Source: Iodobacter fluviatilis (GTDB lineage: Bacteria; Pseudomonadota; Gammaproteobacteria; Burkholderiales; Chitinibacteraceae). Taken from it: a stretch of 64,000 nt of DNA. The notes below the pieces were generated by a model. That model was not told where the DNA came from, did no database searches, and saw only the letters and a list, made by a program, of their open reading frames with translations. The position numbers and the translations under genes are program-made. Shown here piece after piece: positions 1,863 to 16,621 of the stretch. The first letter of the stretch is position 1. Each line of letters starts with the position of its first letter. The DNA is taken from assembly GCF_004194535.1 (NCBI RefSeq), contig NZ_CP025781.1, positions 2,046,001 through 2,110,000 of the forward strand. Direction: 5' to 3'.

Positions 1863-1976
1863 TTAGCGTTGACGTAAAGCAGCGGCAATGCCTTTTTTTG
1901 CCCAAATCACTATTTCCTCTTGTTCTTCAAGGGCGGAGTTTGGAAGCGGGTAGTAAGCCATCCCTTGCACACTCAT
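1863..1976 (-). CDS. 37-codon ORF coupled to hisD
   Basis: Short ORF whose ATG overlaps the hisD stop (TGATG), encoding [19 protein letters not shown] followed by an acidic-to-basic helix ending AALRQR. The overlap is the type used for translational coupling, but there is no independent support for expression. I do not recognise the peptide. It shows no match by eye to the HisC N- or C-terminus, so it is not obviously the remnant of the missing hisC. It could be a real small protein or a chance extension left by the rearrangement that removed hisC. Confidence 0.35.
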   Translation of the reverse strand: MSVQGMAYYPLPNSALEEQEEIVIWAKKGIAAALRQR

Positions 1977-3271
1977 CAATCTTTCAAACGATATTCCGCT
2001 GATCGTGCATGGGCGGTTAGCCCTTCGCCGTGGGCTAGGGTGCTGGCGATGCGGCCTAGGGTTTGGCTACCGGCCTCGGAAACCTCGATCAAACTCGTGC
2101 GTTTTTGAAAGTCATATACCCCTAGCGGGCTGGCAAAACGGGCGGTGCGGGCGGTGGGTAATACATGGTTTGGCCCAGCACAATAATCGCCTAAAGACTC
2201 GCTGGTAAATCGCCCCATAAAGATTGCACCCGCGTGACGCAGCTCAGGTAGGTAGACTTTTGGGGTAGCTATAGACAATTCTAGGTGTTCTGGGGCGATA
2301 TAGTTGGCTATTTCGCAAGCTTCATGTAAATCTTTTACTAAGATAAGCGCGCCTCGGCCGGTGAGGGACGCGCGAATAATGTCTTGTCTTGGCATGGTGG
2401 GGAGTAGCTTTTCGATGCTGGCAGCAACTTGCTGGATGAAATCTTTATCTGGGCAAAGCAAAATGGCTTGGGCGATTTCATCGTGTTCGGCTTGGCTGAA
2501 TAAATCCATCGCGATCCAATCTGGATCGGTTGTGCCATCGCAAATTACTAGAATCTCTGAAGGGCCAGCCACCATATCGATGCCGACAATACCAAACACT
2601 CGGCGTTTGGCTGCGGCCACATAGGCGTTGCCGGGGCCGGTTATTTTATCCACAGCAGGCACGGTTTCTGTACCAAAAGCCAGCGCGCCCACGGCTTGTG
2701 CGCCGCCAATACAGAATGCACGGCTGACACCGGCCACATAGGCTGCGGCCAGTACCAGATCATTTTTTTCGCCGCGTGGTGTTGGCACCACCATAATAAT
2801 TTCGGCCACACCAGCTACATGGGCGGGAATGGCATTCATTAATACGGATGATGGATAGCTTGCCTTACCACCTGGCACGTAAATCCCCACCCTATCTAAG
2901 GCGGTAACCTGCTGGCCTAGCACCGTGCCATCGGCTTCGGTGTATTGCCAAGACGCCATTTTTTGATGTTCGTGATATTTGCGCACTCGCTCTGCTGCGG
3001 CTACTAGCGCATCTCTTTGCACATTGGGCAGGCGCTCGAAAGCGGCTTTTAGCTCGGCCTGCGTGAGCTCTAACTCTTCCATGCTTTGTGCAGGTACGGC
3101 ATCAAAGCGCTGGGTGTATTCCACCACCGCCGCATCGCCGCGTGCTTTTACGTCAGCCAGAATATCTGCAACTCGGGTATCCACATCCGGATCTTGCGAG
3201 GTTTCAAAAGCCAGCAGGGCGGCGAGTTGTGATTGAAAATCAGCAGAACGAGAATCAAGGCGACGCAACAT
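1976..3271 (-). CDS. hisD: Histidinol dehydrogenase HisD
   Basis: NAD-dependent, zinc-requiring enzyme for the last two oxidations of histidine synthesis (histidinol to histidine). The family signature runs through [18 protein letters not shown], the [13 protein letters not shown] and [15 protein letters not shown] nucleotide-site segments, [11 protein letters not shown] (Glu and His ligands), and [13 protein letters not shown] (Asp ligand). 431 residues from the ATG at 3271 match the usual length. An in-frame TTG at 3283 is a less likely start, since GGA upstream is well placed for the ATG. It is now the first gene of the truncated his operon, 21.4 kb from hisG, and needs its own promoter in the AT-rich DNA upstream. 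Confidence 0.96.
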
Positions 3272-4081
3272 GGCAGGGTCCAAAAATATATCGTGGGACG
3301 ATTATACCCAAAGCTTTGGCCGGAGCTGGAGTCATATTTAGGTGGAAAATGTTTAGAAATTGCAGATTAACTTACAATTAATTTTCATAAAATATGCTTT
3401 TATATTACAAATTACTGACTTTATTGGTTTGTTTGTGTCTGCTGTTTGAATTTATGTGCATAGTGGTAAATCATGAATTTAATAGTTACAGATTTTACAA
3501 AAATGAAAGACAATAAAATATGTTTGGCTGGTATTGATTTAGAAAGTAAACTTTTAATAAGACCTTTGCCATATATTTACACTCCATGGGCTTTAGATAG
3601 GGGGATTTCACCAGGCTCAATATTGAAGGGTGAATGGTGGCCTAAAGAATCTTTGTTAGCTCCTCATTTGGAGGATTGTAGTTATAAAAATTTAGAAGTT
3701 GATCTTATTTATAGGAGTGTTGATTTATTTTCTGTGTTGTCTGAAATATGCAGCAATTCAATTGTAGAAGGTTTTGGGGGTATTGTTGCAGGAAGTAAAA
3801 AAATGAGTAATACATCTTTAGTAAAGACCTCAATTGTAACTATTAAAATAAATGCACGCTGTTCTTCTTTGTCTTCAGATTCTGAAGGAAAAATTAGAGT
3901 AGATATTAAGGATGGTGCAGGTGATTTATATTGCGATTTATCATTAACTGACTATAATTTACTTAGTAAATTGAATTTTGATAAAAAACAGATAGAATCT
4001 TTTAATGAAAGCATTAGGATTTCTAACAATGTGAATTGCACCGGGTTTCGCGGAGGCTCCAATTCTTGAGAGAATGGCACC

Positions 4082-4402
4082 ATGAAGAAATCAACTCACT
4101 TTTCCCCCGAAGTCCGTGAACGAGCAGTTCGCATGGTCATTGAACACCTTGCTGAATACCCATCCGAATGGGCTACCCTCGTTTCAATTGCCAGCAAAAT
4201 AGGCTGCACGCCCGAAACACTGCGCACATGGTGCCGTCGACAAGGCGGCGATACCGTTCAAGCCAACAAAAATTCAGCAGAGAACGAACGAATCAAAGCG
4301 CTGGAACGAGAAGTACGCGAACTTAAAAAGGCCAATGAAATTCTGCGCCTAGCCAGCGCGTATTTCGCACAGGCGGAGCTCGACCGCCGCTTGAAATCGT
4401 AA
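4082..4402 (+). CDS. IS3-family transposase OrfA
   Basis: 106-residue helix-turn-helix protein. Its opening ([18 protein letters not shown]) and [19 protein letters not shown] form the DNA-binding part. It is followed by a leucine-zipper-like coiled coil ([20 protein letters not shown]) and the family ending [16 protein letters not shown]. It binds the IS ends and supplies the N-terminal part of the OrfAB fusion transposase. OrfB lies in the -1 frame relative to it and overlaps its 3' end. Confidence 0.93.
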
Positions 4403-5301
4403 GGTCATTCATCGATTCCCATCGTGGTCAGCACGGGGTCGAGCCGATCTGCAAACTGTTACAGGTCGCTCCGTCTGCCTATCGACGTTATGTCGCTCGA
4501 CAGCGCAATCCCGCGTTACGTTGCCAACGTGCCATTCGTGACGAGCAACTGAGCGGTGAAGTTACGCGCGTCTGGCAAGAGAATCATCAGGTGTATGGTG
4601 CCGTCAAAGTCTGGCGGCAACTCAAGCGCGATGGGCATCTTGTGGCGCGGTGTACCGTTGAGCGTTTGATGCGCAGCCTAGGTTTGCGCGGAATATCGCG
4701 TGGTAAAGCGGTGCGCACGACACGCCCAGACCCTGCCGTTGCTTGCCCACTCGATCATGTGAACCGACAATTTGTCGCCGAACGACCGAATCAGCTCTGG
4801 GTTTCGGATTTTACCTACGTATCGACTTGGCAAGGCTTCGTGTATGTGGCGTTTGTGATTGATGTATTCGCTCGGTATATCGTGGGCTGGCGAGTGAGTC
4901 GCAATATGCAAACCGAGTTTGTGCTGGATGCGTTAGAGCAAGCCCTTTGGGCGCGGCAACCGGAGCGAGAAGCGCTGATTCATCACAGCGACCGTGGATC
5001 GCAGTATGTATCGATTAGATATACCGAGCGATTGACTGAAGCAGGCATCGAGCCATCGGTTGGTACGACCGGCGACAGTTACGACAATGCACTCGCTGAG
5101 ACGATTAACGGACTCTACAAAGCGGAAGTGATTCATCGTTTGGGGCCTTGGAAAAGCCTAGAATCTGTGGAGCTAGCGACATTAGAATGGGTTTCGTGGT
5201 TCAATCACCATCGTTTGCTTGGGTCGATTGGTCATATCCCACCTGCGGAAGCAGAAGCAAATTATTATCGTAATCAAAGCGAGCAGGCCATGTTGGTCTG
5301 A
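4339..5301 (+). CDS. IS3-family transposase OrfB (catalytic, -1 frame)
   Basis: The frame is open from just after a TGA at 4336-4338, and the recognisable protein begins near [19 protein letters not shown] at about 4396. It continues with the helix-turn-helix [17 protein letters not shown] and an rve integrase core: Asp in [10 protein letters not shown], Asp in [11 protein letters not shown], and Glu in [15 protein letters not shown]. There is no convincing independent start, so it is most likely made as an OrfAB fusion by -1 frameshifting between 4339 and 4402. An earlier A-run at 4325-4330 cannot be the slip site, because the -1 frame meets the TGA at 4336. I do not see an obvious slippery heptamer in the usable interval. 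Confidence 0.9.
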
Positions 5302-5436
5302 CTCAAACCAAACAGCCTCCGCGAAACCCGGTGCGATTCAATGTTTATGCTAGGATTGGGTTGACTCGTATTTTTAAAGGAGAATTTTGGCTTCAAGTGA
5401 ATGGGTTGTATATTTTTAATTAAGGAATTAATATTT

Positions 5437-5880
5437 ATGAGCGAAATATTTACAATTGGATTTACTGATAAAAGCGCTCGAGAGTTTTTTTATTTGATAT
5501 CACAAAATAATGTTAAGCGTATTATTGATACTCGGATTAACACTGGCTCTCAGTTGTCTGGTTTTGCAAAAAAAAATGACTTGCAATATTTTCTAAAAGA
5601 AATATGCAATGTTGATTATGTTTGGGTCGCCGATTTTGCGCCAACAAAAGATTTACTTAGCCGTTATAGAAGTAATGGTATTACGTGGACAGAGTATGAA
5701 AATTTGTATGTCGATTTGATAATAAAAAGGAAAGTTGAAAAAAAATATTCTCCTGAATTTCTTGATGGGAGCTGTTTGTTGTGTAGTGAACATCAACCAC
5801 ATTTTTGCCACCGAAGATTATTAGTAGAGTACTTAAACTTATCTTGGGGATCGTCTTTTGAAGTTAAACATTTATTATGA
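5437..5880 (+). CDS. DUF488 family protein
   Basis: 147-residue protein of the DUF488 family, whose biochemical role is not settled. Visible signatures are IFTIGFTDKSAREFF at the N-terminus, the RIIDTRINTGSQLSGF strand-loop, and the C-terminal Cys cluster: C113, C116 and C124 followed directly by H125 (CLLCSEHQPHFCHRR). The start at 5437 is chosen because AAGGA lies about 10 bases upstream and the product begins at the conserved strand; an in-frame ATG at 5401 would overlap the end of the upstream gene. The stop overlaps the next gene's ATG by four bases (ATGA), showing coupling. DNA is AT-rich like its neighbours and unlike the chromosome around it, which suggests acquisition. Confidence 0.85.
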   Translation: MSEIFTIGFTDKSAREFFYLISQNNVKRIIDTRINTGSQLSGFAKKNDLQYFLKEICNVDYVWVADFAPTKDLLSRYRSNGITWTEYENLYVDLIIKRKVEKKYSPEFLDGSCLLCSEHQPHFCHRRLLVEYLNLSWGSSFEVKHLL

Positions 5881-6482
5881 ATAGAATATTGATTTATTAT
5901 CCAAAAAATTTTAAAGTTGAAGGTTTTTTTGTAGATAAAGTTAGTACATTGATAAGCGGTCTTGAAGATTGTGAAATTGTAGTTTTGAATGATTATAATG
6001 GTTTTGTTATTTCTAATTTTTCTATCAAATATTCGGTTAAAAATATTACTGAGGATCATAATTATAAATATAATGTAAATAAAGAATTGAAAACAATAAC
6101 GCACGCAATAGTTTTTTGGGATGGAAGAGGTATTGAGTGGCTAGTTTACTCTTTATTTTTGATGAAAATATCTAATAGGATTATTGCAGTTGAGGTTACT
6201 GAAGTTGCCAATAAAGATGTAGGTGATAAATATGATGTATACATTGGAAGGGGGACTCCTTGGGGGAATCCATTTCCAATTGGTGAAGATGGAATGAGCA
6301 GAGAAGATGTAATTAATAAATATAGATTGTATTTTGAAAAAGAAATTTTGACTGATCCAATTAAAAGAAAAAATATATTATCTTTGAAGGGGAAAATTCT
6401 TGGGTGCCATTGTAAACCTTTACCTTGTCACGGAGATGTAATTGCTGAGTATTTAAATACATTTAAAGGTGATGATGATTAG
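5877..6482 (+). CDS. SLOG-like / DUF4326 fusion protein
   Basis: 201 residues in two parts. Residues about 1-108 look like a degenerate Rossmann-type SLOG (YpsA/DUF2493-like) domain: an N-terminal strand, then ITHAIVFWDGRGIEWLVYS, matching the 'AD-IxFWDG-S-GT' strand-turn of that group, and a final strand RIIAVEV. Residues about 119-195 are a DUF4326 domain: YDVYIGRGTPWGNPFPIG, then EDVINKYRLYF, then the cysteine cluster C177, C179, C184-H185 (GCHCKPLPCHGD). Both domains are associated with nucleotide or nucleobase handling, and SLOG proteins occur in conflict systems. The pairing with DUF488 and a DuOB gene in one coupled operon suggests a joint nucleotide-modifying or sensing function. The N-terminal call is weaker than the C-terminal one. 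Confidence 0.75.
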   Translation: MNRILIYYPKNFKVEGFFVDKVSTLISGLEDCEIVVLNDYNGFVISNFSIKYSVKNITEDHNYKYNVNKELKTITHAIVFWDGRGIEWLVYSLFLMKISNRIIAVEVTEVANKDVGDKYDVYIGRGTPWGNPFPIGEDGMSREDVINKYRLYFEKEILTDPIKRKNILSLKGKILGCHCKPLPCHGDVIAEYLNTFKGDDD

Positions 6483-6540
6483 GTGTTGTAAATGTATGCT
6501 GATACTATTTTAGTTCGATGTAACTTTATATTTCTTTGAA

Positions 6541-7155
6541 TCACCAGCTAAACAGCACATCCGCTCGCTCTTTGCTGGCTTCAATTAGCTTTGCATTCGG
6601 GCCGTCAGTGTTGCGTACCCATTCGATAGCTGCGGCTTCGCTGCGGCCAAATTGCATATGGCGCTGGATAAGCCGGGATTCTCTGAGCGCGTGGTCTACG
6701 TCTACATACCAAGTTTCATCGAGCAAGCTATGTAATTTGGCCCAATGCCCGCTGCTCAGCAGCAGGTAATTGCCTTCAACGATGATGAGCTGTTGATCAG
6801 GCTGGATAGGAATGGCGTTGGCGATGGGTTCTTCGATTTCGCGGCGAAACTCGGGGACGTAGATGGTTTCGCCTGCGGGCTGGGTTTTTAGTCGCTGAAT
6901 CATTGCGGCAAAACCTGCGCTATCAAAGGTATCTTCTGCGCCTTTTCTTGCTGCTTTGCCAAGGCGGGCTAACTCGCTATTGGCCAGATGATAACCATCC
7001 ATCGGCACAACTATGCTTTGCTCTGGATAAAGCTGCTGAATCTCTTGTGCTAGCGTCGATTTGCCCGATCCGGGCGGGCCGACGATGCCGAGTAGTTTGC
7101 GCTGGCCATTGGCCAATAGGGCGTCGATTCTTGCCAGATAGTGGGGCTGGATCAT
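6541..7155 (-). CDS. P-loop nucleoside/nucleotide kinase family protein (YggC/uridine-kinase-like)
   Basis: 204-residue cytoplasmic kinase with Walker A GPPGSGKS at residues 26-33, PMDGYHLANSEL (the substrate-side Asp-Gly-Tyr-His of pantothenate/uridine-kinase-like proteins), and YVPEFRREIEEPIANAIPI followed by a Walker B-like strand in IIVEGNYLLL. The C-terminal part has the lid arginines (ESRLIQRHMQFGR). The true substrate cannot be named from sequence; relatives include fructose and pantothenate kinase-like enzymes. It is separated from the TRAP operon upstream by a strong terminator at 7192-7232, so it is a separate transcription unit. Confidence 0.82.
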   Translation of the reverse strand: MIQPHYLARIDALLANGQRKLLGIVGPPGSGKSTLAQEIQQLYPEQSIVVPMDGYHLANSELARLGKAARKGAEDTFDSAGFAAMIQRLKTQPAGETIYVPEFRREIEEPIANAIPIQPDQQLIIVEGNYLLLSSGHWAKLHSLLDETWYVDVDHALRESRLIQRHMQFGRSEAAAIEWVRNTDGPNAKLIEASKERADVLFSW

Positions 7156-13723: not shown

Positions 13724-14137
13724 TTATTTGCAGTACTTAGCAGCTAAACAATTACCTGATTGTGCCCAAGTAATTGCCGTACCTTGAGCATTCAAAGAAG
13801 GAGATAAAATAAAAGTATATCCACCTGCTGCGGCTGTTCCAGTAAAATTAATCACGCCATTAGAAACAGTACCACCAGTAGCCAAACCAGTAGTAGCAAC
13901 AGTGGGAGTTGCAGGAATACCCTGAGTGCCTGCATTACATCCGGCAAAGGTATTCAAATCAGAGTGGCATAATGCAACAGCTTGTTTGTAAGAATCAGAA
14001 ATACTTAATACTTCAGAGTACTTCGCTTTCTTGGTGTAATCCTGATAAGACGGAATAGCGACAGCAGCTAAGATACCAATAATAGCCACAACAATCATCA
14101 GTTCGATCAGGGTAAAACCCTTTTGCATGTTTTTCAT
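13724..14137 (-). CDS. Type IV pilin (PilA/PilE-like major pilin family)
   Basis: 137-residue prepilin. A short basic leader (MKNMQKG) is followed by the [20 protein letters not shown] helix with the conserved Glu5 after the G/F cleavage site, then [19 protein letters not shown]. Two Cys pairs are present: C53 and C63 in the body, and a C-terminal disulfide-type loop ([11 protein letters not shown]). It would be processed by a prepilin peptidase and assembled into a pilus. It stands alone with its own terminator and is of the PilA class, distinct from the MSHA-type operon at 34-47 kb. I looked for a sigma-54 promoter upstream and found no convincing match. Confidence 0.93.
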
Positions 14138-14720: not shown

Positions 14721-16621
14721 GTTCGCAGTAACAGTAATTTAGCTAGCGGGTTAAAGTCCCGCCCGAGGAATTGTCCATACGCCTCGGTAGTACGAAAGAG
14801 CGGCGTTTGAGTAATCAAGGGTCGTGAGTTCTTTACGACAAAGAGGCAGACCGTAACGAAAGTGAACCTAGAAGTAGCCTCGTTAACATTGCAGTTGCCG
14901 ACCTCGTTTCTGTATAGGGAAGGCCGTTGTGCTGATGTGTTGGCAATGGAAGCCACATCCGCGAGCTGTCGGGGTAGCAGGGGCGGTATGTTTTGGAAGT
15001 TAAATTACCCAGTGCTGGAGATCCATCACGGTGGCAGGGAGACTGCCAAGCGCAATGTATAAGGAAACGAAATCAGCGCGTATCGTGATGGAAGTCGGAG
15101 GGGTTCATAGTACCGTTTGAGATTGAGGGACAACATAACCCCAGTCGAGGGAAGGGACCCTGCTTTGTTCATGCAACTGAAGAGCTGAGGATCAGGAGAT
15201 TGCCATGTTGCTAATCACTCCGAATGAGATCAGGACGCTACAGAGGAAGCTGTACATCAAAGCCAAGCAGGAACCAAACTATCGTTTCTACGCACTCTAC
15301 GACAAGATTTACTGTGCTGACATCCTCAAGTTAGCGTGGCGACTGGTCAAGGCAAACAAGGGCAGTCCTGGGGTTGATGGGATTGACTTTGCTGCCATAG
15401 AAAGCGGCGAAGGGGTAGATTGCTACTTGTCGGTAATTAGTCAGGAACTGCAAGATAAAAGCTACCGGACTGGGGCAATCAAGCGCGTCATGATTCCCAA
15501 AGCGGATGGCAGTTTGCGTCCACTCGGGATTCCGACGATACGAGATCGCGTGGTTCAGATGGCGACCAAGCTGGTGATGGAGCCTATCTTTGAGGCGGAT
15601 TTTTGCGAGCACTCCTATGGGTTTCGCCCAAGGAAATCAGCACATCAAGCAATAGACGCCATTGCAGAAGCTTTGTGGCAAGGTAAAACGCAGGTCATCG
15701 ATGCTGATTTGTCGAAGTATTTCGACAGCATTCCTCACGCTAAACTGATGGCCACGGTAGCTGAGCGCATTGTGGATGGGGCTGTACTGGCCTTGATTCA
15801 ACAATGGCTTAAAGCGCCGGTTATTGGAAAAAGTGAGAATGGAAAAGCGGCAACGGTCAGTGGAGGAAAAGGGCAGCGCAAGGGCACGCCGCAAGGTGGG
15901 GTGATTTCTCCGTTGCTATCGAACCTTTACTTACATCTACTGGATAGAATCTGGCATCGCCACAATATAGGGAAGAAACTACAAGCGAGCTTGGTGCGGT
16001 ATGCCGATGACTTTGTAGTGCTCTGCCGTGGCGAGACCCAAAGCCCGCTGGCGCATATGAAGTGGATATTGGATCGGCTGGAATTGACGCTTAACGAAAG
16101 CAAGACAAAAATTGTTGATGCTAAAGCCGCGTCATTTCTATTTCTGGGATTTGATTTGCGCACGAACCTATCCGCTAAAGGCACTCGCTATCCCTATATT
16201 GAGGCCTCAGCTAAATCGGTAGAGAAAATCAAGACGCGACTAAATGAAATTACTGGAAGAACCCAAACATGGCGACCAATTGAAGAGGTGGTGCGAGATT
16301 TAAATCAAGCATTACGCGGTTGGTCGAGTTACTTCCATTACCGGAATTCATCCAAGCAATTTTATAAAGTGAAGCGTCATTCAGAAGAACGGCTAAGGAT
16401 ACATCTTCGCAAACGGCACAAAGTCAGCGATTGGAAAACGAGCATGCTCCGTTATCCAAGGCGGGTGCTAAATGAGCGATACGGTTTGTATTCATTACCG
16501 ACAGCAGCAGGTTGGAAATCAGCGCATGCTTGATGTGAAGAACATCGGAAAGCCGTGTGCGGGAAAATCGCATGCACGGTTTGATGAGGGAGGGCAGGTG
16601 AAAACCTGCTCTCTACTCTAC
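14721..16621 (+). mobile_element. Group II intron, full length 1901 bp (copy A)
   Basis: Boundaries come from comparison with the empty repeat at 59423-59516: the 5' exon ends GGGGTCAGAA and the intron begins GTTCGCAGTAAC. It ends CTCTACTCTAC and the 3' exon begins CAAAATTAAATCC. Domain V is at the 3' end (AAGCCGTGTGCGGG, GAAA-type loop, CGCATGCACGGTTT), followed by a domain VI stem (GGGCAGGTGAAAACCTGC) with the terminal AC. The first 480 bases are structured RNA without a protein gene, and the intron-encoded RT lies in domain IV. It is essentially identical to copies B and C, so the element moved recently. Confidence 0.93.
15205..16533 (+). CDS. ltrA: Group II intron reverse transcriptase/maturase (copy A)
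   Basis: 442-residue intron-encoded protein. RT blocks are seen in order: KGSPGVDGID (52-61), RPLGIPTIRDRVVQMA, YGFRPRKSAHQAI, VIDADLSKYFDSIPH, RKGTPQGGVISPLLSNLYL (226-243) and the catalytic YADD at 266-269, then LGFDLRT. A maturase X domain follows (RDLNQALRGWSSYFHYRNSS). The protein ends shortly after this at GWKSAHA, with no HNH endonuclease domain, so retrohoming would use a nicked or replicating target rather than its own second-strand cut. It acts as splicing cofactor and reverse transcriptase for its own intron. Confidence 0.95.
   Translation: MLLITPNEIRTLQRKLYIKAKQEPNYRFYALYDKIYCADILKLAWRLVKANKGSPGVDGIDFAAIESGEGVDCYLSVISQELQDKSYRTGAIKRVMIPKADGSLRPLGIPTIRDRVVQMATKLVMEPIFEADFCEHSYGFRPRKSAHQAIDAIAEALWQGKTQVIDADLSKYFDSIPHAKLMATVAERIVDGAVLALIQQWLKAPVIGKSENGKAATVSGGKGQRKGTPQGGVISPLLSNLYLHLLDRIWHRHNIGKKLQASLVRYADDFVVLCRGETQSPLAHMKWILDRLELTLNESKTKIVDAKAASFLFLGFDLRTNLSAKGTRYPYIEASAKSVEKIKTRLNEITGRTQTWRPIEEVVRDLNQALRGWSSYFHYRNSSKQFYKVKRHSEERLRIHLRKRHKVSDWKTSMLRYPRRVLNERYGLYSLPTAAGWKSAHA

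Follow-up and report, generated by a model that had tools for sequence, protein, structure and literature searches.

A broken copy of a candidate mobile three-gene defence module beside hisD in Iodobacter fluviatilis

The stretch of DNA analysed here, hereafter the window, comprises 64,000 nucleotides of Iodobacter fluviatilis (contig NZ_CP025781.1, positions 2,046,001 to 2,110,000) and carries an operon of three genes, termed A, B and C, which encode a tandem-OB (DuOB) protein, a DUF488 protein and a fusion of mSLOG to DUF4326, respectively. All three lie on the plus strand, with A starting at 3473, within an AT-rich block between a gene read from its sequence as hisD (1976–3283, minus strand) and a small kinase gene (6541–7155, minus strand; PRK family, 4.9e-8). 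The inserted block extends from approximately 3311 to 6543, these ends being the places where similarity to relatives from the genus stops. The GC fraction is 0.28–0.33 across 3251–4000 and 5251–6500, compared with about 0.50–0.57 in most of the flanking intervals. Genes B and C are joined by an ATGA overlap, and a gap of 13 bases (5424–5436) separates the stop codon of the 3' remnant of A (5421–5423) from the ATG of B, an arrangement that becomes apparent only after an insertion inside gene A is recognised. The AT-rich three-gene block beside the his operon, the 13-base gap and the ATGA overlap had been described in an earlier note on this DNA and are borne out by base composition and coordinates; the insertion sequence that breaks gene A was absent from that account of the operon. 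Promoter-like sites (10 versus 9.7 expected) and terminator-like sites (1 versus 3.2 expected) gave no signal above expectation, and for this reason no promoter or terminator is claimed.

The insertion within gene A is an IS3-family element of 1,309 bp (4032–5340, plus strand). Its terminal inverted repeats (4032–4058 and 5314–5340) are 27 bp long and 96% complementary, and they enclose OrfA (4082–4402, plus strand; HTH_Tnp_1, 1.5e-9) and OrfB (4591–5301, plus strand; rve integrase core, 8.9e-30), the frame of the latter being open further upstream. The trinucleotide ATG flanks the element on either side (4029–4031 and 5341–5343) and is read as a 3-bp target duplication; together with the OrfA/OrfB pair, the terminal inverted repeats and the presence of several copies, this short putative duplication supports the assignment to the IS3 family. 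Six full-length copies with 99–100% identity occur in the host genome, from which we conclude that the insertion into gene A is probably recent. The insertion point lies 26 codons ahead of the stop codon of A, leaving a 5' part of 186 codons and one base (3473–4031, plus strand) and a 3' remnant consisting of the final 26 codons and the stop (5343–5423, plus strand). Using the predicted structure of a relative as a guide, this remnant was assigned to the second OB fold, as its last strand. A gene A in an Aeromonas caviae record (L002, 5487–7552) is also interrupted, in that case by a transposase-looking reading frame.

The 5' part of A matches the Pfam DuOB family (PF22557) at 0.013 with 16 bits, under the cut-off of 27, while the corresponding genes of three related operons (L010, L003 and L057) pass this cut-off. 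A family profile was built from 94 distinct upstream relatives, with the window excluded and identical rows removed; against it the 5' part scores E = 3.5e-11, the best of 1,000 shuffled sequences reaching 4.7, while blastp identities to the relatives reach 36% over 162 residues. Taken by itself, the 26-residue 3' piece matches with E 0.0075 at profile positions 194–219, and the 5' piece ends at position 198. On the strength of these profile matches of the 5' part and the tail, the product of A in the window is identified as a divergent DuOB protein, broken by the IS3-family element. The proposal that the first gene encodes a dual-OB protein is therefore supported, with DuOB homology established by profile, by relatives that pass the DuOB cut-off and by the model of a relative, and no unrelated family emerges.

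The structure of the A relative from L058 was predicted with high confidence (predicted local distance difference test score, pLDDT, 94.7) and resembles tandem-OB proteins best; the in-depth comparison covers residues 1–90. Top Foldseek matches were RPA on single-stranded DNA (6.5e-4), Teb1, RADX and a murine HIN-type DNA binder, and the best structural Z-score was 7.8 over 73 residues, for a telomere end-binding protein. RPA, Teb1 and RADX are tandem-OB binders of single-stranded DNA. In a model of an A relative, the tail that A has lost in the window maps to the last strand. By sequence, the profiles of A, B and C returned nothing convincing among solved structures. We consider it somewhat more probable than its opposite that A serves as a DNA-recognition part.

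Gene B (5437–5880, plus strand) encodes a protein of 147 residues belonging to the 'active N3' type of DUF488, matching PF04343 at 1.8e-17 and PF22751, the 'Active DUF488-N3 subclade', at 1.6e-7 (32.1 bits versus a cut-off of 27). In the 201-residue product of gene C (5877–6482, plus strand), an mSLOG domain at about residues 1–110 (PF22565, 1.2e-18; 67.6 bits versus a cut-off of 27) is fused to DUF4326 at residues 113–191 (PF14216, 1.7e-23; 83.5 bits versus a cut-off of 25), so that the earlier domain calls of DUF488 and SLOG-like/DUF4326 hold for both proteins. Residues C113, C116, E118, C124, H125 and R126 of B are present in all 80 aligned relatives, and residues G172, C177, C179, P181, C184, H185, G186 and D187 of C in 74 of 74. 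The predicted structure of C (pLDDT 95.6) has a Rossmann-like first half with a best Z-score of 8.8 over 96 residues; the structure matches listed for this model span residues 1–105 and thus the half that precedes DUF4326. In the second half, a modelled strand (174–177) leads into the Cys loop, which is followed by a predicted helix (185–195). A strand, a Cys loop and a helix in this order form the layout of rhodanese and phosphatase active sites, and DUF488 and DUF4326 are predicted to be members of the rhodanese-phosphatase superfamily. Comparison of the B and C profiles gave a single match of 20 columns with a probability of 26%, which is kept as a hint. NCBIfam holds no family matching A, B or C. 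Among the PHROGs, the DUF4326 part of C corresponds to phrog_464 (function unknown, 1.6e-36) and phrog_24867 (4.4e-12), and B to phrog_2450 (function unknown, 3.9e-11).

The conservation of the three genes as a unit was assessed from a scan of 84,980 species genomes with the C alignment, which found 129 relatives, of which 80 were kept; another search for relatives kept 80 of 391. Loci with a partial or missing C, 9 of the 80 from genomes and 79 of the 112 from the viral collection, do not enter the pairing counts. At the 71 genome loci with full-length C, B is adjacent in 69 and A is present as well in 67, with A falling at a contig edge in one. The viral-collection loci have B in 33 of 33 and A in 32 of 33, the remaining one at an edge, counts in which several contigs were fetched twice and broken remnants are included; the trio is complete at all six plasmid loci, again with broken remnants counted. 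An even draw of 369 genomes from the class yielded DuOB over the cut-off in 11 and mSLOG in six, including the host. In all of the other five mSLOG genomes a DuOB gene lies at most about 1 kb upstream, with B in between in four, and among the six DuOB genomes that lack mSLOG, four carry two DUF488 genes, one a broken DuOB gene with B, and one neither within 3.65 kb. The suggestion that the three genes form one unit is well supported by these counts, and the co-occurrence that had been put forward as its check is frequent.

Pooling all sources, with the window included and identical rows removed, gave 100 distinct B-C pairs. Among these, intact copies number 90 for A, 97 for B and 98 for C; A is broken in 5, missing in 1 and at an edge in 4, B is broken in 3, and C is broken in 1 and at an edge in 1. 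These counts bear on whether the operon could be a toxin-antitoxin or plasmid-maintenance unit, in which B or C would be toxic and A would neutralise it. Small overlapping genes on mobile elements would suit such a unit, as would the toxin-antitoxin genes found near the trio in some plasmid regions. However, three genes with a tandem-OB first member make an unusual toxin-antitoxin layout, A is broken in this host with B and C open, and at the 6 of 96 testable B-C pairs where A is broken or absent, B and C are intact in every case. Loss of A with B and C intact makes A hard to see as an antitoxin, and we regard this possibility as very improbable. The idea that A is the gene most often broken was set aside, the numbers (6 of 96 testable for A versus 3 of 100 for B and 1 of 99 for C) being too few and draft genomes having frameshifts.

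The genes diverge at different rates. Averaged across 62 shared loci, sequence identity comes to 0.30 in A and 0.33 in mSLOG, versus 0.59 in DUF4326 and 0.61 in B, and the A sequences split into two subtypes of 17 and 45 loci. Rank correlations of co-divergence, computed without control for the relatedness of host species, are 0.78 for B-C, 0.30 for A-B and 0.28 for A-C, and not one of 2,000 permutations reached these values. When each of the two A subtypes is taken separately, the A-B correlation rises to 0.80 and 0.54, and this is read as exchange of A between subtypes rather than as divergence of A independent of B. Given the low identity of A and mSLOG, the high identity of B and DUF4326 and the subtypes of A, we take A and mSLOG as putative fast-evolving parts for recognition or sensing, combined with an enzyme pair that stays constant.

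The closest described arrangement is the PADLOC candidate PDC-M45, composed of a DuOB protein (PDC-M45A), a long DUF488 protein (PDC-M45B) and a short one (PDC-M45C). Gene B of the window corresponds to PDC-M45C (1.6e-57, residues 3–146 of 147), and A relatives from A-B-C operons match PDC-M45A (2.3e-40 at L003 and 5.1e-43 at L057), whereas neither A of the window nor A of L010, the locus with the closest relative of C, gives such a match. The third gene differs in kind, as the mSLOG-DUF4326 fusion stands in place of the long DUF488, and a PDC-M45B match sought in C of the window and of three relatives was not obtained. A full PDC-M45-type system is found at L008 in the order DuOB (6.1e-62), long DUF488, short DUF488, beside CBASS genes. 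Since its third gene is not PDC-M45B, the A-B-C operon is, to judge from these profile matches, a sibling of PDC-M45 with the long DUF488 replaced by mSLOG-DUF4326, and not PDC-M45 itself. Pfam names DuOB, mSLOG and 'active DUF488-N3', the subclade names DUF488-N3a, DuOB and mSLOG fit the A-B-C set, and RefSeq annotates the Escherichia coli trio by its domain names. The statement in the earlier note that it knew of no described system with exactly this set is thus not supported, in view of the listed sibling, the named domains and the annotated E. coli trio. PDC-M45 is not mentioned by name in the literature searched, nor does any paper there combine three of the four terms dual OB, DUF488, anti-phage and defence system. 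The rhodanese-phosphatase enzyme superfamily is treated in a 2023 work by Burroughs and Aravind, listed among the references of PMC12419801, in which the clade is reportedly assigned to the processing of DNA ends in conflict systems.

Within the genus the operon is a horizontally acquired locus. Of 61 genomes, the host alone has gene C, its 60 relatives giving no match. In four of eight genus relatives (L223, L225, L226 and L227) the flanking hisD and kinase genes are 52–64 bases apart with nothing between them. At the same site a sister species (G007) carries a gene of 31% GC for an AAA/OLD-type ATPase (L234, 8012–9772), with matches to AAA_15 (6.8e-31) and to the PADLOC families AriA (1.1e-30), Old (7e-27) and GajA (3.7e-25), and another relative (G001) carries a gene for a TonB_C protein of 170 residues. 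In the remaining two (G003 and G006) the kinase is absent, either at this place or entirely, or gives only a weak match. The gap between hisD and the kinase gene is accordingly read as a small cargo site in the genus.

Beyond the genus, plasmids of enteric bacteria, Moraxella and Acinetobacter carry the trio, and 14 of 5,426 complete E. coli genomes also have it, with 11 of the matches covering at least 80% of the query. Four of the 14 E. coli places were viewed; three are integrase islands at ffs (ffs-ybaA) and one lies by icd. Samples of 148 from 632 neighbour proteins (loci longer than 9,000 bases) and of 148 from 256 control proteins, the latter taken from 20 arbitrary stretches, were compared with PADLOC at 1e-10. 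Neighbour proteins matched 266 families and control proteins 7, the former including type I specificity subunits, mad3/5/8, NsnA, GajA (6.6e-302) and PDC-M61. The neighbouring defence families, the ATPase of the sister species and the E. coli islands all point in the direction of a nucleic-acid-centred conflict system, in line with the nucleotide-centred one that the earlier note had proposed; the handling of modified nucleotides or nucleobases suggested there is conjectural. It is likely that A-B-C forms a mobile defence or conflict module, and, on the evidence of its genomic context, its role is probably in phage defence.

Relatives of B also occur on plasmids apart from C, and their surroundings raise the question of DNA repair. 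Among seven such regions viewed, four (L007, L009, L260 and L263) have B beside uvrA or uvrB together with formaldehyde genes and no A or C annotated beside B; the DUF488 proteins of L007 and L009 belong to the same short family as B and are 43% and 47% identical to it. Two others hold DUF488 pairs (L008 and L262, the latter pair adjoining csm6 and cas1 genes), and the seventh, L261, lies near the gene for a replication-associated recombination protein. The location of B beside uvrA or uvrB suggests DNA as its field of work. The four uvr and formaldehyde-response regions, with L261 as a fifth, would be expected if the operon were a cassette for DNA-damage repair or tolerance carried on mobile elements rather than an anti-phage system. 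Those regions, however, hold B alone, and in none of the annotated regions viewed, whether from plasmids or from E. coli, does A-B-C stand beside uvr genes. The richness of A-B-C neighbourhoods in defence families, the defence-type ATPase at the hisD-kinase site of one sister strain and the DuOB-DUF488-DUF488 sibling by CBASS genes at L008 also argue for defence over repair. A repair cassette in place of a defence module is thus rather improbable, although the two roles are not mutually exclusive.

A collection of 50,697 phage records contains DUF4326-like sequence in 1,998 and nothing that matches the DUF488 type of B. The phage matches differ from C of the window in covering less than 80% of C in all 1,998 records, and in sequence terms phages appear to keep one half of the putative enzyme pair, DUF4326 only. 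Phage and giant-virus DUF4326 proteins, some of them fused to SLOG, are described in two papers and belong to the same family as the second half of C (PMC9503650, PMC7824862). In the first, DUF4326 is predicted to process the terminal phosphate of ADP-ribose (PMC9503650), and in the second it is suggested that DUF4326 may bridge signalling based on nicotinamide adenine dinucleotide (NAD) and DNA modification (PMC7824862). The module might then handle NAD or ADP-ribose derivatives and not DNA ends: mSLOG would bind a ligand of ADP-ribose type, DUF4326 and DUF488 would modify the terminal phosphate or the ribose of that ligand, serving either as a toxic effector or to process a signal, and A would be the sensor of infection. 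The bridging role proposed for DUF4326 (PMC7824862) and the likeness of the modelled first half of C to nucleotide-binding Rossmann folds lend themselves to this scheme. Against it, C is paired in the surveyed loci with DUF488 and a tandem-OB protein, and B elsewhere stands beside uvrA or uvrB, both of which point to DNA, although no search aimed at NADase, Macro or Nudix partners was made in these loci. We judge action on NAD derivatives to be unlikely, if still worth keeping in mind.

The interpretation that we favour, with modest confidence, is that the locus was acquired horizontally as a mobile defence module of three genes, of which this copy has since been broken, with a proposed division of labour. 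As the recognition part, the tandem-OB protein A would bind DNA, its targets being perhaps the single strands or the ends that invading DNA presents. Once A is engaged, B (DUF488 active N3) and the DUF4326 half of C, two conserved enzymes predicted to be Cys-dependent, would process DNA ends or nucleotides, and the mSLOG half of C would provide a pocket for a nucleotide or dinucleotide, by which the reaction is gated or supplied. That B and DUF4326 act on DNA ends or nucleotides is a proposal we hold at slightly less than even. A more specific version, in which the module is a defence system of a separate kind, the fast-changing A senses the DNA or the ends of the invader and switches on Cys enzymes that chemically cap or strip ends, with mSLOG tying in a nucleotide and the phage DUF4326 being a counter or a stolen part, is speculative and rather doubtful; in it, the exchange of two A subtypes above one constant pair of enzymes would give A the part of a specificity subunit. 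In this host the module has probably lost its activity even with B and C open, since the IS3-family element deprives A of the final strand of its second OB fold. We infer the loss of function here, as we do the phage-defence role, the division of labour and the substrate.

Several observations weigh against this interpretation. The product of A in the window falls below the Pfam DuOB cut-off and has no PADLOC match; the whole-genome PF22557 search of the host missed it, and tblastn with gene A against plasmids gave no match, a result ascribed to A being too divergent for a search with a single sequence. The OB-fold scores are middling, with one Foldseek match below 0.001 and no Z-score of 8 or higher over the residues compared (1–90), and OB folds are a common fold with many kinds of ligand. 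The link between B and DUF4326 consists of the 20-column profile match at 26% together with family knowledge. PADLOC has no model for C, that of the window reaching 0.022 with no stretch passing and those of three relatives giving nothing. As for the unit itself, C occurs without B at L021 and L069, B and C occur without A at L088, and at L213 (1450–2665) C comes directly after A, B being missing from between them. In the PADLOC contrast the units counted are families and not proteins, so that one protein can match many; mad3 was also matched in the control, and the control stretches were not matched by taxon.

Were the favoured interpretation correct, a small portable operon would be using two uncharacterised enzyme families on DNA ends or nucleotides, with a host range extending over plasmids and islands of Gammaproteobacteria, E. 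coli included. The copy in the window is of little importance by itself, being broken; the intact E. coli copies make the role of the operon directly testable. As DUF4326 is present in 1,998 of the 50,697 phage records, its activity would also explain something on the phage side.

Two further genes in the window were named from sequence alone, a gene resembling those of type IV pilins within AT-rich DNA (13724–14137) and a group II intron-type reverse transcriptase (15205–16533).

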